DNA from: Lachnospiraceae bacterium
Lineage (GTDB): Bacteria > Bacillota > Clostridia > Lachnospirales > Lachnospiraceae
DNA length: 64,000 bases
Assembly: GCA_021205755.1 (NCBI GenBank)
Contig: JAJPWX010000009.1
Location: 1 to 64,000 of the forward strand
Direction: 5' to 3'
Shown here: piece after piece, positions 20,772-21,746 of the stretch
Position numbering within the stretch: the first letter of the stretch is position 1
Layout of the letters: each line of letters starts with the position of its first letter
Translations under genes and position numbers: made by a program
The notes under the pieces: generated by a model
The model's database searches: none
Seen by the model: only the letters and a program-made list of their open reading frames with translations
Told to the model about the DNA's origin: nothing

Positions 20772-20778
20772 CAATTTG

Positions 20779-20820
20779 GGGCGAGAAAGGAAAAGATTCA
20801 TTATCTTCCCTTTCCCGCCC
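20779..20820. terminator. hairpin between convergent genes
   Basis: GGGCGAGAAAGG pairs with CCTTTCCCGCCC around a short loop. No T run on either side, so termination strength is uncertain. Confidence 0.45.
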
Positions 20821-20847
20821 AATACGATGAACAATGAATAATATTTT

Positions 20848-21666
20848 TCAAAAGAAAGTAACACACATTCCTACTGTTGCGATCACCAAAATAGAAAGAA
20901 TAATAATGTAGCTAATCAAAAACCATTTATTCTTTGCATTATTAACAAAAATAAGAATAATTCCCATCATCACAACTATACACAAAGACAACGATAAATT
21001 CATTACCAAAATGTATTTAAAATTCAAAGATGCCTGAGAAAATGCCTGGTAATTAATAGTCAGTAATGTAAAAATAGCCACCAAAACACCCATTAATGTC
21101 AAAACATTGGCATATATTTTCTGAGAGACACCTTCTATATCCTCTTTCGTTTTCTCTGCTTCTTCCTTCATTTGCTTCTTATATTCTTCACTATAATTCC
21201 CAAGTCCACGATATTCTTCTTCATCCAGAAAAGCCGCATCCGGCTGAGCATTATAGGGTACGTCTGGAACCTGCGTAAGCTGTTCAAAAATAACCTGGGC
21301 AATGGACATTCCCTTAGCTAACAGAATAGAGGTCCCCGAAATATTCATTATACGAAGAAAAGCATACGTCTTATGTCCCGGCTGATAATGCGGGCCATCA
21401 ACTTTCAGTCCTTGACGCATTCTTGAATTTTTCTCCGCAATTCTACCCAATATGTTCTCCGGAATATTAAGTTCTTCCCGTGTTTTTATAAAAACATTTT
21501 CACCCGGACTCAGCCAATATTCGAAAACCGGAACTCCGCTTTCATCATATACCACATCAATAGTCAGGTCATAGGAGATACAGTTAACATTTTCTTCTAT
21601 GTATCCAACTGAAATCAGCTGATGGTTTTTAGCATACCATTTTATGTCTTTATCAACCAGAATCAT
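20848..21666 (-). CDS. dCTP-deaminase/dUTPase-like domain fused to three membrane helices
   Basis: A 272-residue protein. Residues 1-155 resemble the dCTP deaminase/dUTPase trimer fold: MILVDKDIKWY start, SYDLTIDVV strand, AEKNSRMRQGLKVDG in place of the GRSSxAR-to-GxIDxGY region, and KGMSIAQVIFEQL. The usual catalytic glutamate (in TLE) and the dUTPase aspartate loop are not conserved (KTYAFLRIMN), so it may bind nucleotide without turning it over. A charged, probably coiled-coil linker (about 155-183) leads to three hydrophobic segments (184-204, 218-241, 248-271). DNA is clearly richer in A+T than both neighbours, suggesting transfer. The layout of sensor plus membrane segment recalls abortive-infection effectors; that is inference. 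Confidence 0.62.
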   Translation of the reverse strand: MILVDKDIKWYAKNHQLISVGYIEENVNCISYDLTIDVVYDESGVPVFEYWLSPGENVFIKTREELNIPENILGRIAEKNSRMRQGLKVDGPHYQPGHKTYAFLRIMNISGTSILLAKGMSIAQVIFEQLTQVPDVPYNAQPDAAFLDEEEYRGLGNYSEEYKKQMKEEAEKTKEDIEGVSQKIYANVLTLMGVLVAIFTLLTINYQAFSQASLNFKYILVMNLSLSLCIVVMMGIILIFVNNAKNKWFLISYIIILSILVIATVGMCVTFF

Positions 21667-21746
21667 CCCGCACCCCCTTTTGTTGATATCGCGATTATAG
21701 CACTTTCAACTTCAATGTACAATATTCCTATCAAAACTTTATTATT

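Follow-up and report, generated by a model that had tools for sequence, protein, structure and literature searches.

The window, a stretch of 64,000 nucleotides from a Lachnospiraceae contig, carries between nlpC and queA a reverse-strand gene, here called pseudo-dcd, which converges with nlpC. Its product consists of a domain resembling dCTP deaminase (Dcd; DCD domain), a charged linker and three hydrophobic segments, an anatomy that is well supported (Table 1). The open reading frame, strand and length given in the preliminary description are correct, and its coordinates fit the gene. An inverted repeat in the nlpC-proximal interval may act as a two-way terminator, and a terminator scan of the pseudo-dcd region returned no terminator. 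Promoter-like sites number seven in the region compared with 4.2 (sd 2.0) in shuffled sequences, so the site upstream of the start is a weak candidate.

Table 1. Coordinates of pseudo-dcd, its parts and surroundings in the window, and of related loci elsewhere
Feature	Position	Strand	Basis or content
pseudo-dcd gene, 272 aa (whole gene)	20848..21666	-	ORF and translation
DCD-like domain, residues 1-165	21172..21666	-	Pfam DCD; family profile against solved Dcd chains
Residues 78-84, E-K-N-S-x-x-R, counterpart of the Dcd K/R-S-S-x-x-R segment	21415..21435	-	alignments
Gln95, at the Dcd/dUTPase Asp position	21382..21384	-	alignments
Arg105, at the Dcd catalytic Glu position	21352..21354	-	alignments
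Charged linker, residues 166-186	21109..21171	-	sequence
Hydrophobic segment 1, residues 187-206	21049..21108	-	hydropathy
Hydrophobic segment 2, residues 217-243	20938..21018	-	hydropathy
Hydrophobic segment 3, residues 251-272	20851..20916	-	hydropathy
Accessory stretch between nlpC and queA	20772..21746	.	missing in four close species, where nlpC and queA are adjacent
Inverted repeat between converging nlpC and pseudo-dcd, possible two-way terminator	20778..20820	.	by eye
Promoter-like TGTACA-16-TATAAT upstream of the pseudo-dcd start	21694..21721	-	motif scan, weak
Split form	L012:4953-6270		all three genes; DUF1653 by Pfam; phage record
Split form	L100:1501-2807		all three genes; its genome G810 had three equal-score matches
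Split form	L016:1031-2169		first two genes
Kinase-linked Dcd-like loci	L095:223-1392, L022:657-2100, L056:10001-11141, L123:410-1981

Domain architecture and catalytic positions

The first 155 or so residues had been described as dCTP deaminase/dUTPase-like, a description supported at the sequence level by Pfam, PHROG and Dcd profile matches. The Pfam DCD family (PF22769) matches residues 50-130 of the window protein (57.9 bits, E = 1.6e-15, cut-off 27) and all 26 members of the family alignment at E up to 0.01, and PHROG 1663, labelled 'dCTP deaminase', matches residues 1-208 (9.9e-20). M. tuberculosis Dcd is matched by the window protein as a single sequence at 3.6e-7 and by the 26-member family profile at 8.8e-14, with profile positions 1-143 corresponding to Dcd residues 1-167; since this alignment begins at the first residue of Dcd, the first ~150 residues would form one Dcd-like domain and no fragment. 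The protein misses the cut-offs of the NCBIfam dCTP deaminase equivalog TIGR02274 (56.7 of 92.8 bits) and of the Pfam dUTPase family PF00692 (19.8 of 22 bits).

The catalytic glutamate and the dUTPase aspartate had been reported as not kept, and the alignments agree on both. At the position of the Dcd glutamate, which we take to be the catalytic general base, arginine (Arg105) is present in 26 of 26 aligned members, including the window protein; the aspartate position is occupied by glutamine (Gln95) in 20 of the 26, by tyrosine, histidine or phenylalanine in six, and never by aspartate. These positions were compared with solved Dcd and with 28 glutamate-bearing ORFs from the same searches, 27 of which carry the aspartate as well. 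The residues S31, D33, E78, N80, S81, R84, G86, P92, Y94, P96 and H98 are invariant in all 26 members, as are R105, N108, A123, Q124, F127, P134 and Y138. In the counterpart of the Dcd K/R-S-S-x-x-R segment, which presumably binds phosphates, N80, S81 and R84 are retained, the first serine being asparagine. The exchange of one charged residue for another that then became fixed, with the phosphate-type segment largely kept, is a pattern unlike decay, and the simplest reading of the DCD-domain residues is that they would permit binding without turnover.

In comparison with Dcd (TIGR02274; solved structures include 2qxx and 1xs1), the family profile of pseudo-Dcd aligns through the S-x-D segment, the K/R-x-S-x-x-R segment and the C-terminal P-Y, whereas both the glutamate and the aspartate are replaced and three hydrophobic segments are added. 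Trimeric dUTPases (PF00692) belong by sequence to the same superfamily, from which pseudo-Dcd differs by the lack of the aspartate and the presence of membrane segments. Because the residues that define these two enzymes are missing, pseudo-Dcd is classed, on sequence grounds, as neither a dCTP deaminase nor a dUTPase. It might still catalyse a reaction, though an altered one, with Arg105 and His98 working on another substrate at the membrane; the fixation of P92, Y94, P96, H98 and R105 across the 26 members would suit a new active site, but suits a binding-only site equally, and with no carboxylate at either the Glu or the Asp position, the latter varying among Gln, Tyr, His and Phe, we regard this explanation as very unlikely.

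The charged linker and three hydrophobic segments noted earlier are recovered by hydropathy (residues 166-272), and the layout proposed for the protein, an apparently dead DCD-type domain joined to a predicted membrane segment, holds. At least three hydrophobic segments likewise arise in 393 of 5000 same-composition shuffles, and the three-segment tail is found again in relatives down to 37% identity (L049). Pfam provides no effector family common to the tails of the 26 members: the adenylyl cyclase N-terminal region, tetraspanin and Vma12 are weak matches in one to four members only and were rejected as tail identities. Two tail-only matches were set aside as chance, one because its matched frame has stops (L007) and the other an efflux-pump-like protein by eye (L031). 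At L028:1276-1806, between restriction-like genes, a winged-helix-like protein (by eye) bears a similar linker and membrane tail, the match covering residues 151-244 (E = 7.3e-4) with one stop within the matched stretch.

Distribution, foreign composition and selection

Within the genus, pseudo-dcd occurs in 2 of 47 genomes, the second copy (G040) being cut by a contig end at residue 7; matches in the genus genomes G019 and G011 carry both the aspartate and the glutamate and were discarded as ordinary Dcd. Arg-type matches, with the window's own counted each time, were obtained in 4 of 397 genomes sampled from the family, 2 of 392 from the order and 2 of 398 from the phylum. The genome-collection scan gives 28 loci, 22 of them with the membrane tail (TM-type) and 6 tail-less, all from Clostridia or Bacilli groups where named; relatives are sparse in Bacillota. 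Among viral contigs, the 26-member alignment recovers seven loci; neither a five-member alignment nor the L044 protein used by itself produced matches there. The short genome matches L017 and L019 yielded no protein of the pseudo-Dcd type. A quick tree covering 81 of 86 DCD-like rows (five were dropped beforehand, and long branches were warned of among the other lineages) places the Arg type in a single clade separate from ordinary Dcd (SH-aLRT 99, 32 rows). Two members have unusual arrangements: L049:10001-11208 contains two tandem Arg-type genes, the second running out near the contig end, and L057:9941-11218 (the same place as L015) encodes an Arg-type protein that has two hydrophobic segments and, at its C terminus, an additional domain resembling by eye a nucleoside deoxyribosyltransferase, a likeness that neither Pfam nor PADLOC confirms.

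The gene had been placed on an AT-rich island relative to queA and the NlpC/P60 gene, and both GC and GC3 reproduce this. GC over pseudo-dcd is 33-38% in windows compared with roughly 50-57% on both sides, and its GC3 of 0.342 lies below that of every one of the 38 other window ORFs that do not overlap and have 200 codons or more (mean 0.584, sd 0.045). The value is equally low in both halves of the gene (DCD domain 0.345, tail 0.336). Of the 22 TM-type loci, 21 have a GC3 lower than the mean of their neighbours, the average shift being 0.146, with a difference of about nil in L042, L044 and L057 and a reversed one (higher) in L047; the tail-less genes display no shift, being lower than their neighbours in 3 of 6 cases with a mean difference of -0.013. 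Among the 30 genus nlpC loci that were read, queA directly adjoins nlpC, with pseudo-dcd absent, in four close species (L138-L141); the window has both the gene and queA, G040 has the gene followed by the contig end, and the other 24 have neither in reach. The accessory, mobile character of pseudo-dcd is well supported.

Purifying selection acts on both halves of the gene. Between the window and G040 copies, dN/dS is 0.165 (DCD domain 0.162, tail 0.164), compared with 0.075 for the flanking nlpC, and two more distant pairs give 0.07 and 0.095, with dS (2.2 and 1.4) close to saturation; for another two pairs no dS was obtained. A transferred dcd that is decaying, fused by chance to membrane segments, would account for the 4 of 22 TM-type copies that are frameshifted or truncated (L034, L039, L042 and L050), some of which may be assembly errors; against the low dN/dS towards G040 and in the two distant pairs, and a conserved three-segment tail, we consider such a remnant extremely improbable. 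In the window and G040 comparison, dS is lower for pseudo-dcd (0.236) than for nlpC (0.553), which is consistent with exchange between species, other causes being possible. Towards L002, dS of the window copy is uneven, at 0.36 for the DCD part and 0.09 for the tail, with 0.55 for the neighbouring nlpC, and recombination may be responsible.

Genomic neighbourhoods and the pyrimidine operon form

The neighbourhoods of the 22 TM-type loci, classed by eye unless a profile match is given, are diverse. Three loci lie in prophages: L044 and L048 beside terminase (by Pfam) and portal genes, and L045 flanked by an integrase on one side and a repressor on the other (by eye). On the viral contig L064, pseudo-dcd stands one small gene ahead of terminase and portal genes (by eye). 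Also by eye, L036 neighbours two integrases, L033 and L047 transposases, and L041 a VapBC-like pair. L042, an ambiguous case, has an HNH gene with PtuB-like matches, the best at 5.2e-14. Two of the 22 are near known defence systems: a Druantia-like one at L058, where a DruE homologue (2.8e-171) is two genes away with a Schlafen/AlbA_2 protein in between, and a retron II-A one at L040, where a KAP NTPase/PifA-like protein (1.7e-47) is followed by retron NDT_II-A (1.2e-81) and RT_II-A (2.1e-114). This number may be little above background. By eye, 12 of the 22, including the window's own site (L032), lie among ordinary genes. A search of PADLOC-DB 2.0.0 at E up to 1 gives no family for the window protein, and the 26 members together give seven weak matches only, each in one member. 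The proposed defence role gains support from the sporadic presence and foreign composition of the gene, the three prophage loci and the two near defence systems, and a defence setting is not the rule, given the 12 loci among ordinary genes and the lack of a fitting PADLOC model. The aligned relatives are neither restricted to conserved core-gene neighbourhoods nor equipped with intact catalytic residues, the glutamate being present in 0 of 26.

The phage-borne copies bring in the explanation that pseudo-dcd serves prophages as a lysogenic-conversion or superinfection-exclusion gene, whose product would shield the resident element through action at the membrane and whose DCD domain would read the nucleotide enzymes of an incoming phage and not the general pool. 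Phage genes surround the copies at three of the 22 TM-type loci and on the one viral contig, and in three of the four cases terminase is adjacent or near; L044, L048 and L064 share a group of eight rows in the tree (SH-aLRT 93). The same group, however, includes L049 and L112, which were not read as phage, the phage copy L045 branches elsewhere, and most copies lie outside recognisable prophages. Exclusion genes, moreover, usually sit on the repressor side, unlike the copies that lie on the terminase side; on balance this role is unlikely.

Five of the tail-less relatives (L051-L055) are proteins of 166 residues that stop at the start of the linker, and their genes lie inside the pyrimidine operon of five genomes, co-directional with and upstream of pyrK and pyrD. 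Upstream of the tail-less gene, L052, L053 and L054 carry, in order, pyrC, pyrF, a PCC-domain gene and one for an aldose epimerase; in L055 the PCC gene is missing from this series, and the upstream sequence of L051 ends after the end of the epimerase gene. A membrane protein is encoded between pyrK and pyrD in L051, L052 and L055, and at L052:11379-13049 it is DUF6056, Pfam having been applied among these loci to L052 and to one gene of L055. The operon form is one clade (93 in the quick tree) and was present in a single genome among 143 sampled across one carrier's order, a frequency that rules out the pyrimidine operon as a widely conserved home; restricted to one clade and rare in the order, it looks like a single capture that was then kept. 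In four of the five genomes there is a second member of the DCD family, some 270-275 aa long and without the glutamate. In these second proteins (L071, L072, L073 and L074) the Glu position is serine or alanine, and the C-terminal part of L071 and L073 resembles DUF1653 by eye.

The operon location makes a ligand from the pyrimidine pathway the first guess, and it is speculation that Arg105 reads an anionic or acceptor-rich base such as orotate. A purine ligand is also conceivable, a guanylate-kinase-like gene lying after the remaining tail-less copy, L056. The tail-less, probably soluble version offers a means of finding the ligand, which makes the sensor idea directly testable. From the same operon comes the notion of a membrane-anchored regulator of pyrimidine metabolism or transport, which would sense a pyrimidine nucleotide or an orotate-type intermediate and control a membrane partner without killing. 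The presence of the tail-less relatives in the operon of five genomes suits it, as does the constraint on one tail-less pair (dN/dS 0.116 compared with 0.236 for pyrK in the same pair); yet the operon form is that one rare clade and lacks the membrane part, and the TM form occurs sporadically, for the most part with a foreign composition. We judge this regulator quite unlikely.

Nucleotide sensing, known systems and other lineages without the glutamate

Pseudoenzymes act as sensors elsewhere, and bacteria fight phages by emptying or altering nucleotide pools, direct reading of these pools being less clear. Our preferred reading, held tentatively, is that pseudo-Dcd is a horizontally acquired, single-gene, membrane-bound pseudoenzyme that binds a nucleotide, gates a membrane effector and guards against phage; its role as a sensor is likely, and its role in defence is plausible. 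The DCD domain would keep its fold and most of the phosphate-holding segment with the glutamate replaced by an invariant arginine, and with that replacement a nucleotide, or a metabolite of the pyrimidine pathway, should be bound but not converted. Should the protein form a trimer like its relatives, three linkers and nine membrane helices would be brought together, and ligand binding or loss could switch the membrane part between harmless and membrane-active. A phage that alters nucleotide pools might then elicit a response of the guard by abortive infection or superinfection exclusion; since prophages and islands carry the family, guarding against a phage-induced pool change would be the likeliest use. 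If this holds, a dead nucleotide enzyme combined with membrane helices would constitute a direct pool sensor built from a housekeeping enzyme.

Anti-phage dCTP deaminases empty the dCTP pool and share the nucleotide theme, but they are active enzymes, whereas pseudo-Dcd, lacking the catalytic residues, could at most read the pool. Ligand-controlled membrane disruption is proposed by analogy with Panoptes OptE and CBASS Cap15, which, in the excerpted text of PMC12657218, likewise have a small nucleotide-binding domain fused to membrane helices, with the ligand keeping OptE off and switching Cap15 on. As given in that excerpt, these proteins have an S-2TM-beta domain on two helices and a partner nucleotide synthase, in contrast to the DCD-like domain and three segments of pseudo-Dcd (PMC12657218). 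No such synthase is present beside the window gene (nlpC, queA), and none was recognised by eye in the partly read neighbourhoods, up to three genes per side, of its relatives. Pseudo-Dcd is classed as a variant of this kind of nucleotide-binding domain plus membrane helices. Phage dUTPases that signal to SaPI repressors, as outlined in excerpted text, are a precedent for a dUTPase-fold protein acting as a signal (PMC5593958). The available excerpt of the DefensePredictor paper lists a 'dUTPase' domain among predicted, unvalidated defence domains, and within that excerpt no dead Dcd with membrane helices is described (PMC13092281). Among the matches listed from open-access full texts, no description of a Dcd pseudoenzyme with a membrane tail was recognised.

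A broader and rather doubtful version of the guard reading takes Arg-type pseudo-Dcd to be a novel single-gene defence of Bacillota against phages: it would hold a nucleotide of the pyrimidine pathway, perhaps anionic and sensed by the arginine, and would open or dissolve its trimeric membrane module upon a phage-induced change of that pool. In one clade the pyr operon would have captured the sensor, which would serve there as a soluble regulator, and the combination of a dead Dcd with a membrane part would have arisen several times, fused or neighbouring. Among the 86 distinct DCD-like ORFs, at least two hydrophobic segments are found in 0 of 28 with the glutamate, as against 28 of the 58 that lack it (23 of the Arg type, 5 of other types), a pattern that is a lead and no test, the set having been gathered with a TM-bearing query and therefore being biased. 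In a split form, the membrane segments reside in a coiled-coil protein of its own, encoded after a Dcd-like protein without the glutamate and ahead of a DUF1653-like protein. Other Dcd-like proteins, either lacking the glutamate or of the Arg type, are fused to or lie beside guanylate, thymidylate or deoxynucleoside kinases (Pfam). At L018:1498-3628 and L113:1-2127, a Dcd-like protein common to two genomes has leucine at the Glu position and a single hydrophobic segment; its neighbour, of one kind in both, resembles an FAD oxidoreductase, an identity for which the L018 gene gives Pfam matches below their cut-offs and no others. On Priestia megaterium plasmids (L009:5977-9161 and L010:5977-9164), a Dcd-like protein has valine at the Glu position and two hydrophobic segments, and a MazG-like identity for the gene that follows it in L010 was abandoned, Pfam giving no confirmation. 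The genes downstream at these plasmid loci encode a small protein, for which only L010 has an annotation, an FMN oxidoreductase, and a product labelled DUF4062 that scores below the Pfam cut-off.
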